DNA from: Psychrobacter sp. JCM 18901
GTDB taxonomy: Bacteria; Pseudomonadota; Gammaproteobacteria; Pseudomonadales; Moraxellaceae
Direction: 5' to 3'
DNA length: 64,000 bases
Assembly: GCF_000586435.1 (NCBI RefSeq)
Contig: NZ_BAWH01000001.1
Coordinates: 186,001-250,000 of the forward strand
Below the pieces are notes generated by a model. It saw only the letters and a program-made list of their open reading frames with translations. It was not told the DNA's origin and made no database searches. Positions 1,810 to 14,387 of the stretch are shown in pieces (position 1 is the stretch's first letter; every line of letters starts with the position of its first letter). The position numbers and the translations under genes are program-made.

Positions 1810-2167
1810 GGGGATGTTCTGGCTTCGACGCTGGTGATGAAACTCAATGATGCATGTCGAGAGTGTATGTCCTCTCGTTAATCAAACATATATTGTTATA
1901 GTCGCAAACGACGAAACTTACGCTCTAGCAGCTTAAACCCTGCTTACTTAGTTGCTGATCACCTACAGTTGGTTAACTAAGTTGAAGCGTCCGCATGTAG
2001 GCTCGCCACAAGGGATTGTCTCAATCGCTTGGGTTCAAAAGTAGAGAATCGTCCAATCCATCCTGACTGTCGGATCGGTGCGGATTAAATTTAAAGACAG
2101 AAACTAAACATGTAGATTCATGAGCGTAATGCTGGCGGACGCGGTTCAACTCCCGCCATCTCCACCA
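1810..2167 (+). ncRNA. ssrA: tmRNA (ssrA)
   Basis: Rescues stalled ribosomes and tags their products. The 5' end GGGGATGTTCTGGCTTCGAC and the 3' end CATCTCCACCA form the tRNA-Ala-like acceptor stem (GGGGATG pairs with CATCTCC), with an encoded CCA at 2165-2167. The resume codon GCA at 1904 starts the tag ANDETYALAA, ending at TAA 1934-1936. About 358 nt is normal for one-piece tmRNA. The T-arm (GGTTCAACTCC) and 3' end form the attachment site of the element that follows, and the tRNA-like domain is left intact. Confidence 0.97.
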
Positions 2168-2171
2168 AACA
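2153..2171 (+). repeat. attL: ssrA 3'-end attachment site
   Basis: CCGCCATCTCCACCAAACA, the last 15 nt of ssrA plus 4 nt, recurs exactly at 12452-12470. Flanking bases differ on both sides, so the core is 19 bp. Tyrosine integrases commonly use the 3' end of ssrA as target, and one lies immediately downstream. The copy here completes the functional tmRNA. Confidence 0.92.
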
Positions 2172-2176
2172 CTGAT

Positions 2177-2214
2177 AAAGGGCTGACCGTCATAGACTGT
2201 CAGCCCTTTATTTT
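2177..2214 (+). terminator. Rho-independent terminator serving ssrA, on the element side of attL
   Basis: A perfect 11-bp stem (AAAGGGCTGAC / GTCAGCCCTTT) is followed by ATTTT. It begins 6 nt beyond the core, so it belongs to the element and replaces the chromosomal ssrA terminator displaced to about 12476. Confidence 0.85.
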
Positions 2215-2268
2215 GGGCGTTTTTTGGGTTTTCACTACCTCGTAGGGGTATGGCGAACCATATAGAAT

Positions 2269-2288
2269 GTTGGTATTATTGTTGGTAT
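2269..2288 (+). repeat. Left copy of a paired GTTGGTAT motif, possible integrase arm site
   Basis: GTTGGTATTATTGTTGGTAT contains two GTTGGTAT units 12 bp apart. A copy with 19 of 20 identical bases lies near the right end at 12371-12390, in the same orientation. Paired direct repeats inside both ends are typical of arm-type integrase sites. The role is an inference. Confidence 0.5.
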
Positions 2289-2329
2289 TAGAGTTTATAC
2301 ACACTCTCAATACAACAAAGGATAGCCCA

Positions 2330-3571
2330 ATGCCCTTAACTCATACCGTCATCAATAAGCTACAGCCTAGTAGCACCTCGATTGATACAAAGCGACCTGA
2401 CAAGCATAGTGACGGTAACGGGCTGCAATTATGGGTGCGTTATACGGGCGTCAAGTCATGGATCAGCGCATACCGTTGGCAAGGTAAACAGCAAACCCTC
2501 ACTATTGGCACTTATCCAGTTATGAGCTTGCAGAACGCAAGACAGCGCAATATTGAGATCAAACGCTTAATAGCTGATGGTGTGAACCCTAAAGATCATA
2601 AAAAAGAGCAGCAAGCCAGCCAAGACGGTTTAAATATTTTCGATAATATAGCCCAGTCATGGTATGCAGAACGTAAAACCTACCTAGCAGAAAGCACCTT
2701 TACCCGTAACTATTCCGCCTACATGCGCGATGTTAAGCCCTCCATCGGTCAAAAGAACATCAACGATATAACCGCGCCTGATATATTAGCCATTGGCAAA
2801 GCAGTAGAAAGCCGCGGAGCTAATGAAATGGCAAGGCGTACCATTAGAGAAGTAGGGCAGATATTTAAACACGCCATACGCAATGGACTAGCTACACATA
2901 ACCCAGCCACTGACCTAGCCGAAGCAATCAAACCACACAAAACAACCAACCATCACCGCATTACTAGCCAGCAACTGCCAAAGCTACTAACAGACATCAA
3001 TGCTTATCAAGGTGATGTACTGGTGAAGCTAGGCTTATGGTTTTTATGCTATACGTTTGTGCGTACCAATGAATTACGCTTCATGGAATGGTCAGAGATT
3101 GACTACAAACACGGTTTATGGCGAATACCAGCCGATAAGATGAAAGCCAAGCGTTTGCACATTGTGCCACTAGCACCACAAGCAATGGCGATACTGGAGC
3201 AGATCAAAGAGCTAGGTTTTTCGGATCAGTACGTTTTCTTTAATACCTCAACTCGTAAGCCATACAGTCAAAGCGCATTTATCAATGCCCTATGGAATAT
3301 GGGTTATAAAGGCAAAATGACGGGGCACGGTTTCCGTGGGCTTGCCAGTACCACACTGCATGAAAAAGAGTTTATGCACGAAGCGATAGAGCTACAGCTG
3401 GCACATGACAGAGAAAACAAGATCAGCGCAGCATACAACGGAGCGCAGCACCTACCATACAGAATAGATATGATGCACCAGTGGGCAAAATTCATTGACG
3501 ATGCTTACGCTGGCAAACTGGATAACGTGATCCGTGCAGACTTTAAAGGACAAAAACAAAAGCTAGGCTAA
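2330..3571 (+). CDS. int: Tyrosine integrase, P4-type with DUF4102 N-terminal domain
   Basis: Catalyses site-specific recombination between attP and the ssrA 3' end. ATG at 2330 is preferred because AAAGGA precedes it; an upstream in-frame ATG at 2267 lies in the putative arm repeat. The N-terminal 90 residues match the arm-binding DUF4102 fold (DGNGLQLWV, IGTYPVMSL), followed by a core-binding domain (about 100-200) and the catalytic domain. Catalytic residues visible: R245 (VRTNELR), H333 and R336 (HGFR), H359 (LAH) and Y369 (AAYN). The 413 aa length is normal and the frame is intact. It lies about 160 bp from attL, transcribed away from it. Confidence 0.95.
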   Translation: MPLTHTVINKLQPSSTSIDTKRPDKHSDGNGLQLWVRYTGVKSWISAYRWQGKQQTLTIGTYPVMSLQNARQRNIEIKRLIADGVNPKDHKKEQQASQDGLNIFDNIAQSWYAERKTYLAESTFTRNYSAYMRDVKPSIGQKNINDITAPDILAIGKAVESRGANEMARRTIREVGQIFKHAIRNGLATHNPATDLAEAIKPHKTTNHHRITSQQLPKLLTDINAYQGDVLVKLGLWFLCYTFVRTNELRFMEWSEIDYKHGLWRIPADKMKAKRLHIVPLAPQAMAILEQIKELGFSDQYVFFNTSTRKPYSQSAFINALWNMGYKGKMTGHGFRGLASTTLHEKEFMHEAIELQLAHDRENKISAAYNGAQHLPYRIDMMHQWAKFIDDAYAGKLDNVIRADFKGQKQKLG

Positions 3572-3624
3572 CACTTAGCACCAACTATGCAAGGCTAGGA
3601 CTAATTACCCGAACGACAGCTATT

Positions 3625-3686
3625 TACACACCCTTATGCTGTCACTGCCTTGCGCCTATTTTGATAAAAGGGTGTAGGGGTGTGTA
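3625..3686 (+). promoter_or_regulatory. Inverted repeat overlapping the start of the next gene
   Basis: TACACACCC (3625-3633) and its exact complement GGGTGTGTA (3678-3686) flank 44 nt. An extra AGGGTGT lies at 3669-3675. The right arm covers the Shine-Dalgarno area of the gene starting at 3689, so it could be an operator. This is inferred from position only. Confidence 0.35.
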
Positions 3687-3688
3687 TT

Positions 3689-5106
3689 GTGAGTACTTTA
3701 ATTGATGAACTAGAAGCGCGTAAAAATGACTATGTTTTAGTAGCAGATGTCATAACTTTGATGGAAAATGCGACCAATAGCACACCTCATGAGGTAGTAA
3801 AATACCTTGACGCACATAATATCGATGAGCAGATATCTATATTCTATATGGACGAGAGCTATAATTTTGAGCCTTATAATGGTCACTTAATAGGTCTAGG
3901 AAATGATGCAAACCGTACTTATTTCCACAAGTCTGATGTGATGGCGTTTGAACCAATCACAAAGCATAATGTTTTTAAAGAAAGTCTATACACGAATAAT
4001 ATAGTCGCTGATGTTTACGGGCGAACTCATGATGTTAATCAATATAAGAAAAATCGCGAGGAAACCTACTTAACACTAAGTGAAACAATTGATTTAATTA
4101 ATACCAATATCAACCCTAGCAACCAGTATGGACTATCTGTTGATAACACTAAATTAAGAGACCTAGCTAGGAAAAAGAATTTTACACCTTGTTTTTATTA
4201 TCATGGCTATGTTGGTGAAATAGATTATCAAGGCATTTTGCACACAGAAATTATCGCTGGTTACTTCACTTATAGGTTATTAACTGAGGAAATTTGTGGT
4301 TTCGATAATTACATGGAACTACCCAGTGATGGAGTGAAGATTTACAGAATTATCGAAAGGAAGTCCGCAAGGTTTGCAGATTATGATGATGGATTATTTT
4401 TATTCTATAAAACCCTAATGGACTGACCAATGCTGAAGCAGATAGGCAAACGCATGTTGAAGCGGACGAAATTAGGTTTGTAAAACGAGAAGTAGATAGC
4501 TACATAGCATCGCTCGCGAATAACAGTATGAGCCGAGACGACACACCAGCACAGAATGATAGTAAATTACTCGCAAAGCTGAAAAAGTTACAATCTGAAA
4601 ATGACGACCTTAATGCTAGGCTGAGCACTGCTAGAAACACTTACAAGCAACACCGAAATGAGATAAAAGCACTCACAGAAAAGAACGAAAAAGCGGACAG
4701 TGAAAAAGCGGAACTTATCGAGCAGCTGAATAGCGTCCAAGCAAAGTTGGCAGACAAACAGACTGATAGCGCTACACTTTCAAACACTGATATTCAAAAC
4801 ATAAAGAAAGCAGCTATCAAGCAGTTCAATAGAAGCCTAGCGATGGCTTTGATTGACCTAGATTACCAAAGTAACCTAAGAAAGGGTGACATAGTCAATT
4901 TCATAATACCTTATATGAAAGAGTTGGCATATGTACTTGCTGATGAGCAGGCAGATAAAGCTAAAGTTTTGACGGTAAAAAGTAAGACAATTTATGATAC
5001 TCACTTACAAGGATTAAAGTTTAAGCAGGGGACACAGACTAAAAAAGAAAGAGAACGAGTAAATATTGAACTTTTATTCAAAAAACAATTACCCGTCACG
5101 GAATAA
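3689..5106 (+). CDS. Unrecognised element protein with repeated N-terminal units and C-terminal coiled coil, one frameshift
   Basis: Function unknown. The frame breaks at 4406-4413 (AAAA where AAAAA restores it) and then continues uninterrupted to 5106, about 470 aa. GTG at 3689 is chosen because AGGGG lies about 8 nt upstream; GTG at 3680 is an alternative. The N-terminal half shows two similar stretches (YVLVADVITLM about 15-25; YLTLSETIDLI about 130-140), each followed by aromatic, acidic segments such as PCFYYHGYVGEID. Residues about 285-360 are Lys/Glu/Leu heptads with strong coiled-coil character. The C-terminal 90 residues are basic. The position directly after int suggests element control or accessory cargo. 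No known family was recognised. Confidence 0.6.
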
Positions 5107-5139
5107 ATACCCCGTTAAATACCTTTCACAGCCCGTAAG

Positions 5140-5161
5140 CCCTCTATTTAGAGGGTTTTTT
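5140..5161 (+). terminator. Rho-independent terminator
   Basis: CCCTC-TATTTA-GAGGG followed by TTTTTT. It ends the integrase-side transcript before the alpA-like operon. Confidence 0.8.
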
Positions 5162-5175
5162 GTTATCTAAGCTAT

Positions 5176-5218
5176 CCATATCGCAGAACACCGCTGCGAT
5201 GCCACTTACACGATATGG
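5176..5218 (+). promoter_or_regulatory. Two mutually exclusive hairpins covering the alpA ribosome binding site
   Basis: Outer pair: CCATATCG (5176-5183) with CGATATGG (5211-5218). Inner pair: ATCGCAG (5180-5186) with CTGCGAT (5194-5200). The pairs share bases 5180-5183, so only one can form fully. The outer right arm includes part of the GGAG that serves the ATG at 5229. A translational switch or protein operator are both possible. Confidence 0.4.
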
Positions 5219-5228
5219 AGTAGTTAGA

Positions 5229-5519
5229 ATGACATACCCAACCCAAAACACCTCAGTTATCCCTTTGACTGGTAACACTTCTCACGATACCGAACTAACC
5301 ACTGCAAACAGTCCAGTTATTCAACTGCCTACTACAGGTATGGGTAGAGCAAAGGACATTTTGCCGTTCCTACCTTTTAGCAAAACCACCTTGTTTGAAT
5401 GGTCAAAAGATGGGCGTTTTCCAGCTGGCAGAAAGTTATCACCAACGATGACCGCATGGAGCTATGCAGACGTTCACGAATGGCTTAATTCTCACACCTC
5501 AACCACTAGCGAGGTGTAA
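5229..5519 (+). CDS. AlpA-family (MerR-like HTH) regulator/excisionase
   Basis: Small DNA-binding protein of 96 aa. The start at 5229 has GGAG 9 nt upstream. The second half carries the AlpA-type winged helix: GMGRAKDILPFLPFSKTTL, then FEWSKDGRFPAGRKL and WSYADVHEWL, the usual order of recognition helix, basic wing and C-terminal helix. In P4-like elements AlpA proteins activate or assist excision. It is first in a tightly packed operon with the next gene 3 nt downstream. The N-terminal 40 residues are Thr/Ser-rich and probably disordered. Confidence 0.8.
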   Translation: MTYPTQNTSVIPLTGNTSHDTELTTANSPVIQLPTTGMGRAKDILPFLPFSKTTLFEWSKDGRFPAGRKLSPTMTAWSYADVHEWLNSHTSTTSEV

Positions 5520-5522
5520 GCC

Positions 5523-5765
5523 ATGAATACACGGCAACCAAAGCAGACCTATAGCCAAATCATTATGGCGCACCTAATGGCAGGTAAGACTATAACCAAT
5601 ATGCAAGCCTATGACGAATACGCCATCACTTGTTTGGCTCAGCGCATTAGTGAGATACGAGCCGATGGCGTGATTATTCAAGATGAAATGATTAAGCAGA
5701 ACGGCAAACGCTTTAAGCGGTACTGGATAGATCAGCCGACACCGCAAACTATAGAGGAGGTGTAA
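5523..5765 (+). CDS. Small helix-turn-helix protein
   Basis: 80 aa. The segment TITNMQAYDEYAITCLAQRI followed by SEIRADGVII resembles short HTH proteins found after AlpA or Cro genes in prophages (the Helix-turn-helix domain PF14090 is my best guess). The C-terminus (KRFKRYWI) is basic. It starts 3 nt after the AlpA stop and ends 2 nt before the next ATG, so the three are surely co-translated. The exact role is unknown. Confidence 0.65.
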   Translation: MNTRQPKQTYSQIIMAHLMAGKTITNMQAYDEYAITCLAQRISEIRADGVIIQDEMIKQNGKRFKRYWIDQPTPQTIEEV

Positions 5766-5767
5766 TC

Positions 5768-6289
5768 ATGCTTACTATCTCAAACAGTAACATAGGTATG
5801 AAAGACGGGCTTTACTCACTCAATGACCTACATAAAGCTAGTGGCAGTAAAAAGAAGCACCAAGCCAGTAACTTCATGCGATTAGAAGCCACAAAGGGCT
5901 TAATTGCTGAAATAGACCGTTCCTCAGATATGAGTAACGGAACAAATTCAACAGCTTACAAGATTATTCAAGGTGGTGACTCAGAGCAGCAAGGCACATT
6001 TGTATGCCGTGAGCTTGTCTATAGTTATGCAATGTGGATCAGCCCACGCTTTCAACTACTGGTTATACGTGCCTTTGACTCAATAGCTAATCAGCAAAAT
6101 CAGCTTAGCCAGCGACTCAATGAGCTATGCCATGATCTTAATATTGTTGATGCTGGACTCACTAGCGCAGGTCGTTTCCTTTGCAAGGTTGGTAAGCAGA
6201 TCAAGCCGCAAATCCAGCACGATATTGATAGTACCCTAAAACAGATGCAACCCAGCCTTTTAGACGTGGAGGACATGCAAGATGAGTAA
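5768..6289 (+). CDS. KilA-N domain protein
   Basis: 173 aa. The N-terminal 105 residues match the KilA-N DNA-binding domain: DGLYSLNDLHKASGSKKKHQ, NFMRLEAT and ELVYSYAMWISPRFQLLVI. The remaining C-terminal part is helical. KilA-N proteins occur in phages and their satellites and act in regulation or anti-repression; the partner of this one is unknown. AGGAGG lies just upstream of the ATG. It overlaps the next gene by 8 nt, which suggests translational coupling. Confidence 0.85.
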   Translation: MLTISNSNIGMKDGLYSLNDLHKASGSKKKHQASNFMRLEATKGLIAEIDRSSDMSNGTNSTAYKIIQGGDSEQQGTFVCRELVYSYAMWISPRFQLLVIRAFDSIANQQNQLSQRLNELCHDLNIVDAGLTSAGRFLCKVGKQIKPQIQHDIDSTLKQMQPSLLDVEDMQDE

Positions 6290-6818
6290 TGATGACAAAA
6301 CCAATCTAAAAGCGCATCACGGGCAGCACAGCGACAGCCAGCCACATAAGCGTGGCTTACTACTTAGCTTTGTCATCTTTATGGCATGGGTGGCAGGTAT
6401 TGGCTTGCTACTCTCACTAATCGCGTGCCAACCAGTACAACCAAAACCGATTGCAACCAATGATAGCAGCGGTTACTATATAGACCTCTCAAAAAAACAC
6501 GCAAGCGGACAGCCAATCCGTAAACCTTTGGCTTTTTTTGTGCCTGTCATTGGTATGGACTCTCAATCCTCAACCAAACAGACAGACACCGCCCTAAGAG
6601 CGCATTTAAGCGCATCAAGGGGGCAAACCATCATATCTATAGCAAATCACTTGCTAACCGACTATGACGGGTTGACGCTGCAAAATAAAATAGCCTTTGG
6701 GCGAATATGCAGGGCGGTTGCTTGCGTGACCGAGAGTAAGACCCGTCACCCTATACTTTTACCGTATAGCGTGGCACATACTCAAAAAACGACGCAAGGA
6801 GGGCATTATCATGCCTAA
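6282..6818 (+). CDS. Unknown protein with one membrane segment
   Basis: 178 aa, not recognised. A polar N-terminus rich in His, Ser and Gln (1-24) is followed by a hydrophobic segment LLLSFVIFMAWVAGIGLLLS (about 26-46) and IACQP, which could be a lipobox-like site after an unusually long leader. The rest is soluble and probably outside the cytoplasm. It overlaps both neighbours by 8 nt in the same operon. The operon context suggests an element maintenance or surface function, without direct support. Confidence 0.65.
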   Translation: MSNDDKTNLKAHHGQHSDSQPHKRGLLLSFVIFMAWVAGIGLLLSLIACQPVQPKPIATNDSSGYYIDLSKKHASGQPIRKPLAFFVPVIGMDSQSSTKQTDTALRAHLSASRGQTIISIANHLLTDYDGLTLQNKIAFGRICRAVACVTESKTRHPILLPYSVAHTQKTTQGGHYHA

Positions 6819-7527
6819 TTCAATCCGTACGACCTCAAACACCCAAACCACTACTAACAGCACACCAGCCACATTCAAGGCAGGTGATAGCGTTCTGTGC
6901 CCGTCATTGAGCCTTAACCCGTTTGTACTTCACAATGACCCATACGGCAAGCGCAAACTATTGGCATTTACTCACGATGACAGCCACTTGTACTATGACA
7001 AGCAAGGCTATTTTGTCCCAGCTTGTGACAAACAGACAGGCGATTATCAGCCGTCACTATTCCACGACACGCCAGCAAACCGCCAAGCGATAGCCACGCT
7101 ATACAATGGCAGCCAATCAAGCCAGCGCACAGTAATAGACATAACCGAACCGAACGACAACGAAGTTATCATCATGTCGTCGCATGAGTTATCAGATATT
7201 GCTTGTGACCTTGAAAGCGCAGCCGTTGTTATAAGTGACATTGGCAAGCTATTAGCCCTTATTCACTATGAGAAAATAAAACCTGATGTTGCTATATCAA
7301 TGGCACGTTTAACGCATGACACTACTGAAACATGGCACGAACTGCTACAAAGCCAGTTAGGTTCAATCAAGAAAACCCTAGCAATGACTCGTTACGCTTT
7401 GTTGGAGGCAGCCAGTGAAAACTACCCTCCAAAACAAAGCCGTAAGCACGCCAAGCGCAAAAGCTACTACAAGAAGTACATAGCCATGCGCCAGCCTAAA
7501 CAGTCACATGCAAGGGGGAACAGATGA
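6811..7527 (+). CDS. Unknown element protein with basic C-terminus
   Basis: 238 aa, not recognised. The first 30 residues are Thr/Asn/Ser-rich. The middle contains a beta-rich stretch with many Asp and Tyr (DDSHLYYDKQGYFVP), and a helical region at about 120-195 suggests dimerisation. The last 35 residues are strongly basic (KHAKRKSYYKKY), consistent with nucleic-acid binding. Its TGA overlaps the ATG of the primase-helicase gene (ATGA at 7524-7527), so a role beside replication is plausible. Confidence 0.65.
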   Translation: MPNSIRTTSNTQTTTNSTPATFKAGDSVLCPSLSLNPFVLHNDPYGKRKLLAFTHDDSHLYYDKQGYFVPACDKQTGDYQPSLFHDTPANRQAIATLYNGSQSSQRTVIDITEPNDNEVIIMSSHELSDIACDLESAAVVISDIGKLLALIHYEKIKPDVAISMARLTHDTTETWHELLQSQLGSIKKTLAMTRYALLEAASENYPPKQSRKHAKRKSYYKKYIAMRQPKQSHARGNR

Positions 7528-10075
7528 CCACCACACCACAAACGATAGACAATAAAAAAAGCCCATGCGGACAACATGGGCGCTCATACTCTCTTACAGG
7601 ATTGCAAGCCACCTACAGAGGAACAGCTGGCAAACAATCCGTTTTTAATCAAACTCAATGACATGCTAGAACCTGAACGGCTGCTATTCGTTACAGGTGA
7701 CACCACTATATATTATGGTGAACAAATTGGCAAAACTGAACCAACAGCCAACACCATAGGCTTAGCATTGACCGACAAACAAGGCGATACAGTAGGCGCG
7801 GTATTCTACACACCAAACAGCAAATCAAAGCCCATTGTCATTGATCCTACAGGTTATGGCGCTATTGTCATTGGTGAGCCAAACAAAGCCAATGAAATGA
7901 TAGCGTTTAATGACCTTGATAGCGGTATTGATGTTTACAGCTACCTGATGGGCAGCGATAAAACAATCATTGTTAGCCCTCACAAAACCAAGCAGTGCCT
8001 TAAAAAGATGGTGCAGCACTGGAGCAGTGGATCACAAGTAATTGTACCTATGACACTTGATGACAAGGGCTTGATAAACCTATTGGCAGGTGTGAGAGCG
8101 CAAGCATTGGTTACTGTGGCTCATATCGTCACTATGCTACAAAATGACAGCTACGAAGCGATACTGGCAGACAGTGACACCCAGCTAATCAACTTACAAG
8201 ATACTGCCTATTATCCTGAATGGCGCGATGATCCCCAGCTGAATGAACCGATGATCTACAGTGATGGGCGTTTTGAGCTTTACCACGATGGACTGTTTTT
8301 CGTGAAGTATAACGATGATGACCCAGCAAACATTACGTTCAAGTTTAAGGCGTTTGTTTGTTCACCGATAGAGGTTATCGCCAAAACAAGGGACACAAGC
8401 AGCGTACATGGGGACGGTTACTGCAGTGGCGCGATGATGACAGCGTATTGCATACATGGTCAATACCGTTATCACTACTGCAAGGTGATGCAAGGGAATA
8501 CCGCCGTGAGCTTGCCAGTCAAGGCTTGAACATTACCACCAACCCCAAACAGCGCAGCTACTTAGACACCTACATTCAAAACTACCCTATTCACAAACGG
8601 GCGTTATGCGTGGATAAGTTAGGCTGGCACGATAAGCAATATATATTACCTGACAGGGCCATAGGCAGCGATGGTAAACAGCTTATTGTCTATCAGTCTG
8701 CAAATAGCATTAACAGCACCTTAACCCAGCAGGGAGAGCTAGCCCAGTGGCGCGATAACTTATGCAAACCACTAGCAGAGCAAAGCCGTTTTGTTTTCTC
8801 TATTGCTTGCGCGTTTGCAGGTCAATTACTGGAGTTATTAGAGTATGACGGGGGCGGTTTTCATCTCTTAGGATCATCAAGCATGGGCAAGTCATTATCG
8901 CTTAAATTGGCTGCTAGTGTATGGGGCAACCCTAACAAGTATGTTAAGACATGGCGCAGCACTGATAACGCACTAGAGAGCACAGCAAGCGAGCACAACG
9001 ACAGTTTTTACCACTTGATGAGATCAGCGAATGTGATCCCAAAATAGTAGGTAAGACCGTTTACATGCTGGCTAATGGTCAAGGTAAAGGACGTAGTACC
9101 ACCACTGGACACAATCGCATAGCCAAAACATGGCGCATTATCTTTTTGTCTAATGGTGAGGAGTCGCTACAAAATTTCATGGCGCAAGCAGGACAGAAAA
9201 CGAATGCAGGTATTGAGGTTCGAGTCGCGCATATTGATGCTGATGCTGGCAAAGGGTTAAAGACCTTTGATAGTTTGGTACTGGCAAAAACAAGCGAAGC
9301 ACAAGCCGATAGGATCAAAGAGCTGTCACACGCTTACTATGGATCAGCTGGCATAGCATGGCTAGAACATATCACCAGTGATAAGGCAGCGACCACCGCC
9401 AACGCTGGGCAGCTTGTCAGTGACTTTATGAACCAGTACAGCGACCTGACAGCACAAGCGCATAGAGTGGCTAAACGGTTCGCTATCGTGAGCGCAGCTG
9501 GTGAGATAGCAACACAGGCAGGTATAACGGGGTGGCAAGCAGGACAAGCAACGACAGCCGTCATGACATGCTTAGATAATTGGCTTGATAACTATGGGCG
9601 TGATGGTGAGCATGAGCAGCGCCAAATTATAGATCATATCAAAGCGTTTATTGAACAGCACGGATCAAGTCGTTTTCAGCCTTGCCACATTCACACATAC
9701 CAAGACTTTGAACCCAAGATAACCAACCGCGCTGGCTATCACAATTACGACACAGGGGAATACTATTTCTCTACCAGTACCTTTGATGAAGTCTGTTCAC
9801 CATTTAACAAAAGCAAAGTCTTACAAGTGTTAGATGAAGCTGGATTGTTGAATGTGACTGAGAATGACCGTAAGACTTGCAAAGTGCCTTTACCATTCAA
9901 AAAGAACCGCCAGCGTGTTTATGCGGTCAAAAGTGAGATATTAAGTTGTGAAACTAAAAAAAGCACTGGGACAACTGGGACAACTGGGACAACCTATACA
10001 CCACAAGGGCTAGAACCTGTCCCAAGTATTAAAACACCACTGGGACAGCTGGGACAAAATAGCTCAATTTGTTAA
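7524..10075 (+). CDS. DUF927-type primase-helicase of the element, three frameshifts
   Basis: Putative replication protein of about 850 aa. ATG 7524 follows a strong GGGGGAA; removing one A from the A7 run at 7554-7560 joins it to the long frame from 7576. Further breaks lie near 8409-8412 (GGGG for GGGGG) and near 9003-9009 (T5 for T6). The N-terminal part (7600-8200) may hold a toprim or primase-like region. The DUF927 part has Walker A GSSSMGKS (8871-8894), an acidic LDEISECD after the third repair (Walker B-like) and IIFLSNGE (sensor-like). The C-terminus is a low-complexity Gly-Thr stretch encoded by the TGGGACA cluster. Such proteins unwind and initiate replication of satellites and islands. 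Confidence 0.8.
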
Positions 10076-10165
10076 TCTGTCCCAAGTGTCCCAAAGGCTA
10101 AAAAAGGGCTGGGACAGCTGAAAGCCAGTAAGTACGGGCGCTGTCCCGTTGTCCCAAGTGTCCCA
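9967..10165 (+). repeat. Cluster of 12 TGGGACA/TGTCCCR motifs, candidate origin or binding array
   Basis: Six GGGACA copies on the + strand and six in the opposite orientation lie within 199 bp. The first three are in tandem with a 9-nt period, and three TGTCCC copies lie within 10142-10165. Eleven of the twelve are TGGGACA or its complement and one is TGTCCCG. The array spans the 3' end of the primase-helicase gene and the DNA after its stop. Dense repeats beside an initiator gene resemble iterons or the P4 crr region. The function is inferred. Confidence 0.7.
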
Positions 10166-10285
10166 AGCAAAAAAGCAGATGCAGACAAAAATAATCTAAG
10201 GTGGGCGTTTATCGTTTGCCTTTTTTTGTGCCTGATGTTTATAAATGTTTATCGTGAGATCAGGTTAATGACTAACCTGTATTAA
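10076..10285 (+). other. Open frame continuing past the primase-helicase stop, encoding a membrane segment
   Basis: After the TAA at 10073-10075 the same frame stays open for 69 codons. It encodes VPSVPKAKKG, then GRCPVVPSVPSKK, then a hydrophobic segment (WAFIVCLFLCLMFINVY) and a short tail ending at TAA 10283. No ATG precedes the membrane part, so it would need readthrough, a repaired indel or a non-standard start. It may be a decayed separate gene. Confidence 0.35.
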
Positions 10286-10343
10286 GTACTCCATGCTAAC
10301 GTGAGCAGCTCAAATAGGAAGTACTAAAGATATCGAAGTCAGT
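10286..10343. other. Short non-coding gap inside the element
   Basis: 58 bp between the post-helicase open frame and the opposite-strand exported-protein gene. Nothing recognised. Confidence 0.3.
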
Positions 10344-10658
10344 TTAATTCATTGAATTAAGTTCTTTATAGCATGCTAGGTAATTCATTGAAGTAAACTC
10401 TTCTACCGCTTGTTGCTTATCGTCTTCACTACTGTAACGAGGCTCATTGAAGCTAAGCTAATTAATTCAATTGCGAGGGCATCTTCATCTCCGAATGCCT
10501 TTTCTGCTGCATTTATTAAAGTCGATGCAGCCATACCATTTTGTCTTGCAGCCATTATAAAACCTGCACTTTCTGAAACAGTTTCACAAATATCATCTTC
10601 AGCTTGTGCAAAAATAGAAACAACTGATAAGCCAATCGTTAAAAGTATTTTTTTTCAA
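10344..10658 (-). CDS. Small periplasmic protein with two conserved Cys, frameshifts
   Basis: About 104 aa when repaired. A hydrophobic signal (ILLTIGLSVVSIFAQA) is followed by EDDICETVSESAGFIM and, after restoring one A near 10430, EPRYSSEDDKQQAVEEF and YLACYKELN. The pattern DIC...A..R..G, a Pro-Arg-Tyr segment and a second Cys near the end is common in small secreted proteins carried by proteobacteria and prophages; I know no function. TTG at 10658 with GGGAG upstream is the likely start, assuming A9 rather than A8 after it. The gene is opposite to the replication operon, so it is probably independent cargo. Confidence 0.55.
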
Positions 10659-10803
10659 AGTTTATTCTCCCTAATAAAAAAGAAATATAGCTGACAAATA
10701 ATTTAATATAATCAATAGCGGATTATAGATAAAATCAGTTTTGAGACTATCACTTGCTAAAAACAGTCTTAGACACGTTAGGCGATTACTGCCAAGCCTT
10801 TTT

Positions 10804-10850
10804 TTATAATGTAAAAAAACTAAGGTTTCCCTAATTTTCTTACATTATAA
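10804..10850. repeat. 11-bp perfect inverted repeat with 25-nt spacer
   Basis: TTATAATGTAA (10804-10814) and TTACATTATAA (10840-10850) lie between two opposite-strand small genes. The AT-rich arms and wide spacing suggest a protein-binding site more than a terminator. Confidence 0.4.
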
Positions 10851-10861
10851 AAATATAGAAA

Positions 10862-10892
10862 AGTCGCAAGGTTCTTAAAAGACCTTTGCGAC
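10862..10892 (-). terminator. Hairpin terminator after the YHYH-like gene
   Basis: GTCGCAAGGT and ACCTTTGCGAC pair with one bulged A. On the minus strand the hairpin is followed by a T-rich run. It sits 28 nt past the stop of the small gene. Confidence 0.55.
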
Positions 10893-10919
10893 TCAAAAAT
10901 ACTAAATTAAACTTCTTAC

Positions 10920-11045
10920 TTAATGACAGTGATAAGTACCTCGTTTGGTGTCATTGTGGCAACCTGATGCATCAGTTCCACCACCATGAGCGAAAGCAGC
11001 TGAAGCGAATGTTACTGTGAAAAGTACTACTAGTAGCTTTTTCAT
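10920..11045 (-). CDS. Tiny secreted YHYH-like protein
   Basis: 41 aa. A signal peptide (MKKLLVVLFTVTFASAAFA) leaves a 22-residue mature peptide HGGGTDASGCHNDTKRGTYH ending CH. The HGGG...GCH...K.G.YHCH pattern is the short YHYH motif seen in small exported proteins; the two Cys and several His could bind metal. GGGA lies 8 nt before the ATG and a hairpin follows the stop, supporting a real gene. The role is unknown; it is probably cargo of the element. Confidence 0.7.
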   Translation of the reverse strand: MKKLLVVLFTVTFASAAFAHGGGTDASGCHNDTKRGTYHCH

Positions 11046-11788
11046 AAAATTATCCCACTATAGTTGATTAATATAGATTCTACTATATGTAAAAATACGA
11101 AGTATTGATACTTAATAAACCATTACAATATTGGTTTTATCATTAGTTTTTCTAAACTTTGAGCTGATATTATCTCAATATGAGAATTGTTATGTCTGAA
11201 TCAGTATTGGCACGCATCGTAGCAATGAGATATGTATAATTTTCGAACTCGTTAAAACCTGACAAAACCTTACATTCAAAACCAATTTGCATGTTGTCAT
11301 TTGTTAACATTGGCAGACAGTACCGACTTAATAAAACTTAACATTGAAAACCAAAGCACACACCGCTAAACGCTGGAATAGATGCCCCCAAGTTTGGGGT
11401 TATTTAGTTTTCGGAGTCCATAAAAGGGACAATTTACGGACATCATAAGCAGGGTCAAAAATGAGTTTATGGAACAGTACGCACACGCGCGAAGCAAGCA
11501 CCAATGACGGGGGTTCTTGGAGTCCATAAAAAGGGGACTTTTCGGACAGGTATCGAGGGGGGTATTGTTTTGAGTGTTGAGCGTATCGACAGAGGACACC
11601 GCCACCATTCACACGCACAAAATAAAAACCATTTCAAAAAGAGGTTAAAGGGACTTTCGCGACAAGTATCGTAAGAGTAGGGCTTACAGCGATCAGCAGT
11701 AGGTTAAAGCCGTGTTAAAAGTTAAAGCACACTGTTTGTCAGTCATGCTAAGGTATAGTGTATTGAATGGACACCAGTGGACGAATAG
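11046..11788. other. 743-bp non-coding stretch of the element, rich in imperfect repeats
   Basis: No convincing gene. It holds a 22-bp imperfect direct repeat (11264-11285 and 11333-11354, 19 of 22 identical) and the GGAGTCCATAAAA repeats listed separately. The left end must carry the promoter of the small YHYH-like gene and the right end that of the lipoprotein gene. Confidence 0.45.
11413..11665 (+). repeat. Two 30-bp imperfect repeats plus a partial third
   Basis: GGAGTCCATAAAA...CGGACA occurs at 11413-11442 and 11519-11548 (106 bp apart). A partial copy at about 11649-11665 shares GGACTTTCG and GACAAGTATCG with the DNA of the second copy. They may be binding sites or relics of a duplicated gene segment. 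Confidence 0.45.
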
Positions 11789-12190
11789 ATGAACAAGTTA
11801 ATCCCTATAATCTTATTATCACTGACAGCTTGCCAGCCCAGTAAAAATACGATTGATAATGTTGATGATGCTATAACTGTTCATGATTTATATTGGTCAG
11901 GTTATGGCAATGTTCAGCCATACCCGTTTACTACTGAGTATGGTCATATTGCTTGCAGTTTAAACGAAGTAACATATTATCCTGATGATACGATCAATGA
12001 TGAGTCGCAAGTAGGCTTGCCATTAAACAAGCTAGCTCAACAAAGACAAGATGAAAGCGGTATAACAGCAACCGTACCAAACGCCATAAAGCCTAATGCT
12101 GATTTGTCCGAAGCTATTAGAATGGGGCTAGATAGGTGCAAGCAGGTACAACAGCAATTAGATAAACTTAGATCAGAAAGTGGTATGTAA
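11789..12190 (+). CDS. Small lipoprotein, DUF2511 (YebY)-like
   Basis: 133 aa. A short lipoprotein signal ends in LTAC (Cys at about residue 15). The mature part has WSGYGNVQPYPFTTEYGHIA followed by CSLNEVTYY and GLPLNKLA, resembling the DUF2511 pattern of a Trp/Pro-Phe segment, a Cys and a terminal small-protein motif. A second Cys sits in the helical C-terminus (DRCKQVQQQ). It is the last gene before attR and reads outward to the right junction, a usual place for cargo. The family assignment is tentative. Confidence 0.6.
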   Translation: MNKLIPIILLSLTACQPSKNTIDNVDDAITVHDLYWSGYGNVQPYPFTTEYGHIACSLNEVTYYPDDTINDESQVGLPLNKLAQQRQDESGITATVPNAIKPNADLSEAIRMGLDRCKQVQQQLDKLRSESGM

Positions 12191-12451
12191 AAAAATCAAT
12201 GAGCTAAACTTTTAATTTCGCTTATGTGAAAATATGCATATGTCAGCGGTCACCGCTTGTGAAGCCCTGAACAATTACACCACCCTAGTATGTTAAAGCA
12301 GTAAATAATTACAAAATAATATTTAGTTGATAGGGTTGGCATTGAATAACAGCAAAATAAAAAAACGATTGTTGGTATTATGGTTGGTATCGTCTATTTT
12401 TAAATTGTTAATAATGTTTATTATCAGTTACTTATAGCTATGGTTTGGTTT
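12191..12451. other. Right-end non-coding DNA of the element
   Basis: Holds a 6-1-6 palindrome AGCGGTCACCGCT (12245-12257), the right paired GTTGGTAT motif (12371-12390) and AT-rich DNA before attR. No gene seen. Confidence 0.5.
12371..12390 (+). repeat. Right copy of the paired GTTGGTAT motif
   Basis: GTTGGTATTATGGTTGGTAT differs by one base from 2269-2288. It lies 61 bp inside attR, in the same orientation as the left copy. Confidence 0.5.
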
Positions 12452-12470
12452 CCGCCATCTCCACCAAACA
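12452..12470 (+). repeat. attR
   Basis: Exact 19-bp copy of 2153-2171. The sequence just before it (GGTTTGGTTT) does not match ssrA, so this is only the truncated end created by integration. Confidence 0.92.
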
Positions 12471-12475
12471 TTAAA

Positions 12476-12508
12476 AATCCGATCACTTAGGTGGTCGGAT
12501 TTTTTTTG
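12476..12508 (+). terminator. Displaced chromosomal ssrA terminator
   Basis: AATCCGATCAC-TTAG-GTGGTCGGATT followed by seven T. It starts just after attR, where the terminator of uninterrupted ssrA would lie. Confidence 0.8.
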
Positions 12509-12758
12509 TCTAAATTTTATGGTTAATTAAAGAAACAATGATACCAATAAACTTTTGATGAGAAAGTAAAAACTATTTATATAGAGTAATCATCAAGTCT
12601 TTGAAGTTGAATCACAGTTTTTCGTCGCCTATGGAGAACATAATATTAACTTGTCTTAAAGAATAATTCTGATTATTCTTAGTTGAGGCCTATTCTTCGC
12701 ATCAGGCAATGCAGTAGCAAGAATAAGCGGACTTTCAAATAACTACAGGGAATGTATT
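12509..12758. promoter_or_regulatory. Upstream region of the acyl-CoA synthetase with an 8-bp palindrome
   Basis: AAGAATAA-TTCTGA-TTATTCTT (12659-12680) is a perfect inverted repeat about 80 bp before the start codon and may be an operator. CAGGGA precedes the ATG at 12759. Confidence 0.4.
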
Positions 12759-14387
12759 ATGTTAGGAAAAATGATGTATCAGCCATTGCTGATCAGTGGT
12801 CTAATCGAACACGCTGCCCGTTATCATGGCGATACGGCGGTTTTGTCCAAAGAAGTCGATGGACAGATGACTCATACCAATTGGCGTACTGTCTCAGATA
12901 ACTCAAAACGATTGGCCAATGCGTTGGCTACACTGGGACTTCAATCATCAGAACGCATAGCGACCTTGGCTTGGAATAATCGTCGTCATTTAGAAGCTTG
13001 GTATGCGATTTCAGGTAGTGGCATGGTTTGCCATACTATCAATCCACGTTTGTTCCCTGAGCAGCTTAGCTACATTATCAATGACGCTGATGATCGAGTA
13101 CTGTTTTTGATACTACTTTCCTACCGTTAATTATGGCAATCAAAGAGCATATCAAAGGTGTTGAACACTTCATTTGTCTAAGTGATCGAGATGATAGTAT
13201 CGTAGAAAAACTGCCTAATGTATTGTTCTTTGATGAGCTATTAGCAGAAAATTCTACTGACTTTGACTGGCCTCAATTCGATGAAGCAACAGCCAGCTCT
13301 TTATGCTACACATCAGGAACTACTGGTAACCCTAAAGGGATTTTATATACGCATCGCTCTTCTGTGCTACATGCGATGGCGTTATGCATGCCTGATGTCT
13401 CCGCGCTCTCTGCACAAGACGTTTTGTTACCCGTGGTACCGATGTTCCATGTCAATGCGTGGGGCACGCCTTATGCAGCTGCCTTGACTGGTTGCTCTCT
13501 CATACTTCCTGGTCCAAATCTCGATGGTGATAGTCTGGTATCTCTTATTGATGATTGTCATGTCACGGTTGCTTTGGGTGTTCCAACGATTTGGCAAAGT
13601 CTATTGACCGCTGCCAAAGCCCGAGGTAGCAAGCTTGATAGTATGACGCGTACCATTGTCGGAGGGGCGGCATGTCCACCATCGGTAATCAAAACGTTTA
13701 GAGAAGACTTTAACTGCGATGCGGTGCATGGTTGGGGCATGACAGAAACTAGCCACTTGGAACGATGAATCAAATAAAAGCCAAGCATAAATCGCTGAGT
13801 AAAGATGAGATTAATGAGTTGCGTAACTCTCAAGGTCGTCCGCCCTACGGCGTTCAGCTACGTCTCATAGATACTGATGAACCGCTACAGCGAGTCGAAG
13901 AAGATGGTATGTCTCAAGGTCGTTTACAGATCAAAGGTCATTGGATCATCAATGACTATTACACAGAAAATCCTGATGCGATAACTGAAGATGGTTGGTT
14001 CGACACAGGCGATATTGCAACCATTGATGCCGATGGCTATATGAATATTCGGGATCGCTCAAAAGATTTGATCAAATCTGGTGGAGAGTGGATATCGTCA
14101 GTAGAGCTTGAAAACATCGCAGTCGCCCATCCGCAGATAAGAATGGCGGCCGCTATTGCTGCAAAGCATAAAAAAATGGAGCGAGCGCCCAGTATTGATT
14201 GTGGTGAAAGAACCAGATTCAGAAATCGATGAGTCGCAAGTGCTGAGCTTTTACGAAGGTAAAATCGCCAGCTGGCAAATACCCGATAAAGTCATATTTG
14301 TAGATAATATCGTCCTAAATGGCGCTGGGAAAATGGTCAAAAAAAGATCTGCGTGATGACTATGGCAATGTGTTATTAGGTAGCTGA
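12759..14387 (+). CDS. Medium/long-chain fatty-acyl-CoA synthetase, four frameshifts
   Basis: Activates a fatty acid with ATP and CoA via an acyl-adenylate, in the cytosol. Motifs in order: P-loop YTSGTTGNPKG, gate/adenine region GWGMTETS, GWFDTGDIATID and the hinge DRSKDLIKSGGEWIS, with the C-terminal GKMVKKDLRD after repair. Frame breaks lie near 13105 (T5 for T6), 13752 (GCCAC for GCCCAC), 14170-14176 (A7 for A6) and 14339-14345 (A7 for A6). Repaired it is about 542 aa, normal for this family. The substrate is likely medium or long-chain fatty acids by resemblance to AlkK-type enzymes. It is a single-gene unit between the element and tRNA-Leu. Confidence 0.88.

Follow-up and report, generated by a model that had tools for sequence, protein, structure and literature searches.

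The window analysed here is a stretch of 64,000 nucleotides from Psychrobacter sp. JCM 18901 (contig NZ_BAWH01000001.1, positions 186,001 to 250,000), and near its left end a unit of 10.3 kb is inserted at the end of ssrA, the gene for transfer-messenger RNA (tmRNA). We consider that this element is very probably a phage satellite, as its sequence suggests; that it has the anatomy of one can be said with high confidence. Its most likely route of spread would be in phage particles, because it has its own integrase, a replication gene (rep, product Rep) and an apparent phage packaging signal. A preliminary description, made from the letters alone, had proposed a replicating satellite that would need a helper, and this is favoured by what is now available: empty sites in relatives, a candidate cos site and a Rep that resembles those of the staphylococcal pathogenicity islands (SaPIs) and is accompanied by iterons. 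The genome is represented by a 3.15-Mb assembly of 58 contigs with a completeness of 84.7%.

The attachment site in ssrA

The attachment gene lies at 1810-2167 on the plus strand (Rfam RF00023, 178.9 bits) and keeps its 3' end after the insertion. ARAGORN did not call a tmRNA at 1810-2167, and the T-arm of the window's tmRNA is one base shorter than that of all 11 relatives compared. The exact 19-bp repeats of the ssrA end reported at both edges in the preliminary description proved correct: attL (2153-2171) and attR (12452-12470) are copies of the core CCGCCATCTCCACCAAACA, where 0.01 would be expected, they enclose the 10.3-kb unit, and they are the only matches to the core in the window with up to three mismatches. 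For the first 15 bp of the core, the whole genome holds two exact copies and one with a mismatch. Directly 3' of attL is a terminator-like inverted repeat belonging to the element (2175-2211; 17-nt arms, 94%), the native terminator repeat of ssrA being displaced beyond attR (12471-12509). Genomes with an empty site, a check set beforehand, were found. Amongst loci of relatives chosen because the tmRNA gene and the right flank adjoin, the ssrA site is uninterrupted in 11 out of 11, and the flanks overlap by exactly 19 bp in eight of them and by 17 bp in two, the alignment being incomplete in the last.

Candidate origin and candidate packaging site

The rep gene (7576-10075, plus strand) encodes a DUF927 helicase with a C-terminal winged helix (PF06048, 3.3e-63). 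The matches to a profile built from ten Reps include 8tch, a SaPI 'pathogenicity island protein' (5.2e-18), and 5dgk, the helicase of the staphylococcal cassette chromosome (6.9e-13). Comparison of folds was confined to the C-terminal domain (model confidence, pLDDT, 76.9), the model of the whole Rep having a mean pLDDT of 35; the top Foldseek match of this domain is again 8tch, the SaPIbov1 initiator (E 1.1e-3, probability 1.00), and no match was obtained at E<=0.001.

Across the rep stop codon is a candidate replication origin (9967-10165) with 11 TGGGACA iterons in both orientations. Eleven in 251 bp compares with a mean of 0.05 and a maximum of 2 in 2000 dinucleotide shuffles. Iterons are present both before and after the stop codon, with no clear peak of AT content between them. 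Their offsets are nearly identical in relatives L041-L048; in other loci they are shifted, or the same region has them spelled CGGGAC or GCGGAC, and each of the two common spellings is found at more than one kind of insertion site. An exact 17-nt inverted match joins a position in the neighbouring orf8 (7007-7023) to an iteron (10047-10063); it was considered as a second site like the crr of P4, an idea given up because L041 and L042, both at ssrA, are the only members in which a lone iteron recurs at a similar distance.

Iteron spelling tracks the winged helix of Rep and not the helicase core. Amongst the 24 of 28 aligned loci that have a clear iteron type (L059 and L065-L067 were dropped, and L068 stands outside the Rep alignment), winged-helix identity is 0.756 within iteron types and 0.536 between them, as against 0.856 and 0.865 for the AAA+ segment, the borders of these segments being our choice. 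The partial correlation between winged-helix identity and spelling is 0.69, a value reached by none of 5000 label permutations, a procedure that removes shared ancestry only in part; shared ancestry as the cause is argued against by the flat AAA+ values.

The apparent packaging signal is a 44-bp motif at 12210-12253 on the minus strand, an exact GTGACCGC-N24-GCGAAATTAAAA, which lies 217 bp inside the end of the element, between a lipoprotein-like gene and attR. It came from a comparison of satellites with prophages, in which the interval between the HNH and small terminase (terS) genes of prophage G065 matched the right ends of satellites. An exact scan of IMG/VR gave eight contigs, some of them near-duplicates; in all eight the motif precedes terS, whose start is 51-312 bp past that of the motif, and in seven an HNH gene lies ahead of it. 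Within the genus, allowing up to two mismatches, it was found in 21 of 105 genomes, compared with four matches of the backward pattern. By context these matches are six phage regions with HNH, terS and the large terminase gene (terL), 12 satellites, two satellite-like ends, one of them at the edge of a contig, that have the same small genes without a visible primase, and one that is unassigned (G086). In the 12 satellites the motif is on the minus strand downstream of the integrase and primase genes; four have DUF927 and eight a DUF3987-related primase, a type assigned by Pfam in one protein and by likeness to that protein in the remaining ones. Across the bacterial family, with up to one mismatch, 26 of 299 genomes have the motif, as against no control matches, and the ten matches outside Psychrobacter comprise eight beside HNH and terS and two without terS within 1.5 kb. 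The flanks are also alike, with TTCAG before and TTAG after in most cases. The carriers include elements with an integrase only about 30% identical to that of the window, so that the cos-like site is common across lineages. The nearest named terminases are those of the Moraxella phages Mcat (68%). Position and conservation thus make 12210-12253 a candidate, and a likely one, for a cos site of the kind used by HK97-type phages.

The motif was also sought in 21 satellites bounded by attachment (att) repeats, namely the 13 bounded regions described below, another seven from ssrA and one from an IMG/VR contig. With up to three mismatches it occurs in six, with no match in 444 kb of reversed sequence; relaxing the search of the last 1.5 kb to four or five mismatches still gives six satellites, with one control match each. 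A setting of six mismatches was not used, as it gave eight satellites and eight control matches. A recurrent gene of 162-171 aa (MPALATTHSLNDYLKLPISRYREQL...) and genes of 80-88 aa lie directly before the cos-like site in L222-L227 and L229.

Gene content, relatives and prophages at shared sites

From left to right the element comprises an integrase gene, a variable gene, genes for AlpA, HTH_39 and KilA-N proteins, orf7, orf8, the DUF927 helicase gene, a largely non-coding stretch and, last, a small lipoprotein-like gene, and all of the annotated genes are on the plus strand. The tyrosine integrase (2330-3571; 413 aa, with its start as in relatives) has the Pfam domains Arm-DNA-bind_3, Phage_int_M and Phage_integrase, and the catalytic residues R245, H333, R336, H359 and Y369, as given in the preliminary description, are correct in the 413-aa numbering from the ATG at 2330. 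The adjoining variable gene (3680-5106), whose product has no Pfam family over the cut-off, is a single 475-aa open reading frame (ORF) in the sister element L042. It is followed by the AlpA-type regulator (5160-5519; PF05930, 2.4e-7), the winged-helix HTH_39 protein (5523-5765; PF14090, 2.8e-8) and the KilA-N protein (5768-6289; PF04383, 1.6e-20), the last with an ORF11CD3-like end that makes this a Bro-like zone; the match to ORF11CD3 (PF10549) is slightly under the cut-off (22.7 versus 25 bits). The AlpA, HTH_39, KilA-N and DUF927 matches all exceed their Pfam cut-offs, which upholds the earlier naming of AlpA-like, KilA-N and DUF927 genes. Both orf7 (6282-6818) and orf8 (6811-7527) recur in related elements, and orf8 had no match among 50,697 phage records. 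Other ssrA elements and prophages have, near their right end, distant homologues (35-39%) of the lipoprotein-like gene (11789-12190). An 80-aa ORF on the minus strand (11366-11608) belongs to a cluster, cl9, with members in six loci, and is either a gene or conserved non-coding DNA.

The preliminary description had taken the unit to lack structural and transfer genes. This stands at the level of Pfam (14 element ORFs) and PHROGs (10 ORFs), where no such family gave a convincing score and the smallest ORFs were left unscanned. It had also regarded helper-type structural genes in the same unit as evidence to the contrary: none was found in this unit, but elsewhere an integrase of the same clade serves, at ssrA, prophages that do have structural genes. 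PADLOC gave just weak or fragment matches, for eight window proteins.

Two genes are frame-broken in the assembly, rep over three frames (7576-8529, 8358-9047 and 9065-10075) and gene 3680-5106 over two. Seven of the ten host ORFs adjoining the element are likewise broken (with L155 as the reference), compared with two of eight element ORFs (with L042), and the rep ORF is unbroken in most relatives, at 630-930 aa; for these reasons the breaks look like assembly errors, which is the simplest reading. Frame breaks as proof of decay were rejected, neighbouring host genes being broken at least as often. Compared with a relative, many host genes in the first 30,000 nucleotides of the window (1-30000) are frame-broken, a pattern typical of assemblies that contain indel errors.

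Inside orf7, at 6666-6755 on the plus strand, is a structured RNA resembling sRNA-Xcc1 (Rfam RF02221, 39.4 bits, gathering score 53). Six other elements were tested and all match this family at the same gene; together with the window element they have nine copies, of which one exceeds the gathering score. A hidden Markov model (HMM) made from eight copies found 31 in 29 of 50 sources, the ssrA prophages L180 and L184 included; L230 has three copies. Double changes were seen in 11 of 21 base pairs, as against 2.8 in shuffles (none of 500 reached 11) and at most four in slid controls, using 25 distinct rows of the 31 aligned copies and a structure predicted from the same alignment. Such covariation within a coding gene is hard to attribute to the protein alone. 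That it might be an immunity RNA, by analogy with P4-type elements, is only an idea.

Of 105 Psychrobacter genomes, 30 have the C-terminal part of Rep, the window's own among them. With a relative's Rep as the query against named genomes, 19 of 20 loci were from Psychrobacter, the remaining one being a weak match in Bacteroidia. Matches to the Rep profile extend to 81 of 299 genomes of the bacterial family and to eight of its 16 genera, some of them covering only the N-terminal part, which is common to DUF3987-type primases. Twenty-eight surrounding regions were fetched, making 29 with the window. Recurrence of the same gene order elsewhere in the genus, another check asked for at the outset, was observed at ssrA and at several tRNA genes: an integrase gene, a variable gene, AlpA, HTH_39 or small genes, orf7 and orf8 where present, then Rep and a variable region, with some losses. 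The sites are ssrA, tRNA-Pro(ggg), tRNA-Arg(ccg), tRNA-Arg(cct) and tRNA-Met. In 13 of the 29 regions the element lies between exact repeats of 17-74 bp and measures 8.8-12.2 kb; for the other 16, either the stretch that was fetched shows no right end or a tRNA was not called. The cargo after Rep, in or beside these 16 unbounded regions, includes type I restriction, BREX PglZ/PglX, a type IIG-like system and acyltransferases, and compared with its relatives the window copy carries little cargo.

The integrase tracks the insertion site and Rep does not. Mean identities in pairs at the same site are 0.85 for the integrase and 0.75 for Rep (n=98), and in pairs at different sites 0.48 and 0.73 (n=227). 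This comparison covers 26 of the 29 loci, with both tRNA-Arg genes pooled as one site; L048 and L068, which have no whole integrase, are outside the integrase comparison and L063, where no tRNA was called, is outside the site means. Thus L062, at ssrA, has an integrase 98% and a Rep 72% identical to those of the window, and for L043, at tRNA-Pro, the values are 79% and 93%. The window's own genome has a second DUF927 element of the family at tRNA-Arg(cct) (L068, contig C54, 15000-34000), holding genes that cluster with the PglZ/PglX of relatives; these genes, the integrase and Rep are there split into several ORFs. On contig C32 of the same genome (L009, about 12600-13460), an integrase match of 67% DNA identity adjoins tRNA-Pro(ggg), with the same type of terminator repeat.

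Integrases of this clade lie 100-162 bp past the tmRNA gene in 23 of 105 genomes (by our count, one being partial). Amongst those read, the elements concerned include satellites of DUF927 or DUF3987 type, 20-22 kb elements with a tape-measure gene, prophages and a remnant (G011). The prophages, G085 and G067, are of about 30 and 33 kb; the terminase, portal, capsid and tape measure of G085 were identified by Pfam and PHROGs, and G067 was called by likeness. Compared with the window they have 91% identity in the integrase, 53-54% in AlpA, 39-40% in orf8 and 38-39% in the lipoprotein, and 19 of the 21 satellites share a right end of about 100-170 bp with G085, G067 or G051. A cos site shared by the satellites with G085 and G067 was sought and rejected (best matches E 0.5 or worse), and these prophages therefore stand as integrase relatives and not as established helpers. 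Another prophage, G065, is also bounded at ssrA and has a TerL identified by Pfam; its first gene, of 384 aa, has no match to this integrase. In contig L149/G105 (IMGVR_UViG_3300028498_000028, 46.9 kb) the tRNA-Pro(ggg) core occurs at 37, 34842 and 46800, and these copies delimit a tandem of one prophage-like unit and one DUF927 satellite; what was read of the former is the 5 kb adjoining the satellite and short pieces of its ends, with no HMM annotation. Of the 20-22 kb ssrA elements, G070 has a tail tape-measure gene and G051 a broken one. In L170 (7517-11353) and L173 (4295-6384) a tape-measure gene, broken in L173, lies near the integrase gene, and DnaB (typed in L173), orf7 and orf8 are present; these elements are perhaps tail-hijacking satellites or partial prophages.

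Interpretation and comparison with known systems

It is proposed that the element would work like the phage-inducible chromosomal islands (PICIs) of Gram-negative bacteria. A helper phage, acting through AlpA, would trigger excision mediated by the integrase; the winged helix of Rep would bind the iterons, the origin would open and concatemers would be made; the TerS-TerL of the helper, with HNH, would cut the concatemer at 12210-12253 and fill helper capsids; and in the next cell the integrase would insert the element at ssrA.

Several observations weigh against this scheme. The motif is absent from 15 of the 21 att-bounded satellites, which would therefore need other packaging signals, and it was found in none of 16 further loci within the stretch fetched, their right ends being unbounded. 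The prophages that share the integrase, G085 and G067, do not share this motif, and a TerL of the G065 kind was not found in the window's genome, in a search without a positive control of an assembly that is incomplete to the extent given above. In IMG/VR, the scan for close relatives of Rep gave one contig, in which the satellite is beside a prophage-like unit and not alone. The accessory protein of the conjugative relaxosome of pCW3 (5vfx) matches the winged helix of Rep nearly as well as 8tch does (E 2.1e-3). Finally, if the frame breaks in Rep and gene 3680-5106 are real, this copy is dead.

Some of these points bear on other explanations. That most bounded satellites are without the cos-like motif would suit a passive island at a tmRNA or tRNA gene, one with its own integrase and no dedicated packaging signal that is transferred by generalised or jumbo-phage transduction, in the manner of the Pseudomonas islands I23, I44 and I55, with which the elements also share the type of site, the integrase, AlpA and, in relatives, defence cargo (PMC12595487). 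Such an island does not account for the SaPI-like Rep, the iterons and the candidate cos, and the core genes of the I55 type (YqaJ, RadC and inovirus Gp2-like) gave no match in the Pfam and PHROG scans; we regard this explanation as improbable. It is quite improbable that the element is a decayed prophage, one of the G085/G067 kind that has lost its structural half. These prophages do share the integrase, AlpA, orf8, lipoprotein and right end with it, and two of its genes are frame-broken, but the replication modules differ (DUF927 Rep and iterons as against an O-like initiator in G085), Rep ORFs that are mostly unbroken recur at several kinds of site, and the 13 att-bounded elements are all of 8.8-12.2 kb.

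Mobilization by a conjugative element can be envisaged since islands of the type of MGIVchHai6 carry a DUF927 gene, albeit one dispensable for mobilization (PMC7449626); DUF927 matches occur in 66 plasmid records, and the likeness of the winged helix to the pCW3 protein points the same way. However, no relaxase or transfer family was found among the scanned ORFs (an oriT was not searched for), and conjugation leaves a motif that lies close to terS in phages unexplained, so that we hold this origin to be highly improbable. On a broader scale, a satellite-helper network may span the genus, in which unrelated satellites, with DUF927- or DUF3987-related Reps and integrases about 30% alike, would have converged on one helper cos, integrases and att sites would be traded with complete prophages, origins would be picked by pairs of winged helix and iteron, and the orf7 RNA would be a switch for immunity or copy control common to prophages; we offer this tentatively, and think it somewhat doubtful as a whole.

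The phage satellite reading has consequences for how such elements are found. Satellites are usually recognized by gene content alone. In the present case the sequence itself points to candidates for a packaging site and an origin, and to the specificity domain of Rep. Signals of this sort can be matched to a type of helper, which makes the pairing of satellite and helper testable in environmental, cold-loving bacteria, and the orf7 RNA may give a small-RNA family a home.

Of the known systems, Gram-negative PICIs such as EcCICFT073 have an integrase, AlpA, a Bro-like zone, a primase or Rep, a 3' iteron origin, no structural genes and cos packaging (PMC6092414, PMC10111431). Such islands also have two sets of iterons around an AT-rich stretch and a single direction of transcription, and rely on the cos of a helper or on a TerS of their own. 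The window element likewise has the integrase gene and alpA at its left end, iterons 3' of Rep as a candidate origin, no structural genes and a candidate cos; it differs in that Rep is of DUF927 type and that the iterons reach into the 3' end of the gene. The att sites of Gram-negative PICIs are reported never to be used by prophages (PMC6092414). Here, ssrA holds prophage DNA in G085, G067 and G065, and tRNA-Pro is shared in G105; satellites and prophages with a common integrase and site are contrary to that rule, which is one of those defining PICIs. The main text of PMC6092414 has no mention of Psychrobacter. With SaPIbov1, of a Gram-positive host, only Rep was compared, and it is alike in the helicase core by sequence and in the winged helix by fold; the divergent Stl layout of SaPIs was not seen in the element. 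P4-like satellites, the comparison made in the preliminary description, do have an integrase, AlpA and a replication protein; membership of the P4 family was rejected, there being no homologue of Psu, Sid or Delta in the Pfam and PHROG scans, at the sensitivity of hmmscan, and a Rep of the DUF927/SaPI type.

The Pseudomonas islands I23, I44 and I55 resemble the element in lying at the end of tmRNA between short direct repeats, in their tyrosine integrase and AlpA and, in relatives, in defence cargo, and the I55-type feature of intY at tmRNA together with AlpA is present in the window; they differ in their size (23-55 kb), in having AlpA at the far end and in that I55 is mobilized by a jumbo phage (PMC12595487), and the word 'primase' is absent from the main text of that paper. 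The phage-inducible chromosomal minimalist islands (PICMIs) of Vibrionaceae also have an integrase, AlpA and a primase, and several of the Psychrobacter satellites with the cos-like motif have, as PICMIs do, a DUF3987-related primase; unlike the window element, with its ssrA site and DUF927, PICMIs use a fis site, have a DUF3987/DUF5906 primase, are of about 6-7 kb, and had no cos or pac that their authors could find (PMC10803314).

In one open-access library, no publication was found for Psychrobacter with 'phage satellite', none of the matches listed was by its title work on a Psychrobacter satellite, and DUF927 with satellite gave only PMC10111431. The closest known system, and the closest induced relative, is phiAH14b of Pseudomonas (KU708005), which was induced, was found as DNA in particles made of phiAH14a proteins and was proposed as a satellite (PMC4936722). 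It has the same order of integrase, an uncharacterised gene, AlpA, a Rha-like gene, small genes, primase, DUF927-type helicase and lipoprotein, and its Rep has 33% identity over 63% of that of the window. It is larger (16.8 kb), with a separate Toprim primase gene and an 18-bp att of another sequence, and no cos site is named for it in the available part of PMC4936722. Newly described here, in relation to these systems, are the candidate iteron origin with its matching winged helix, the candidate cos, the integrase clade common to satellites and prophages, and the orf7 RNA.

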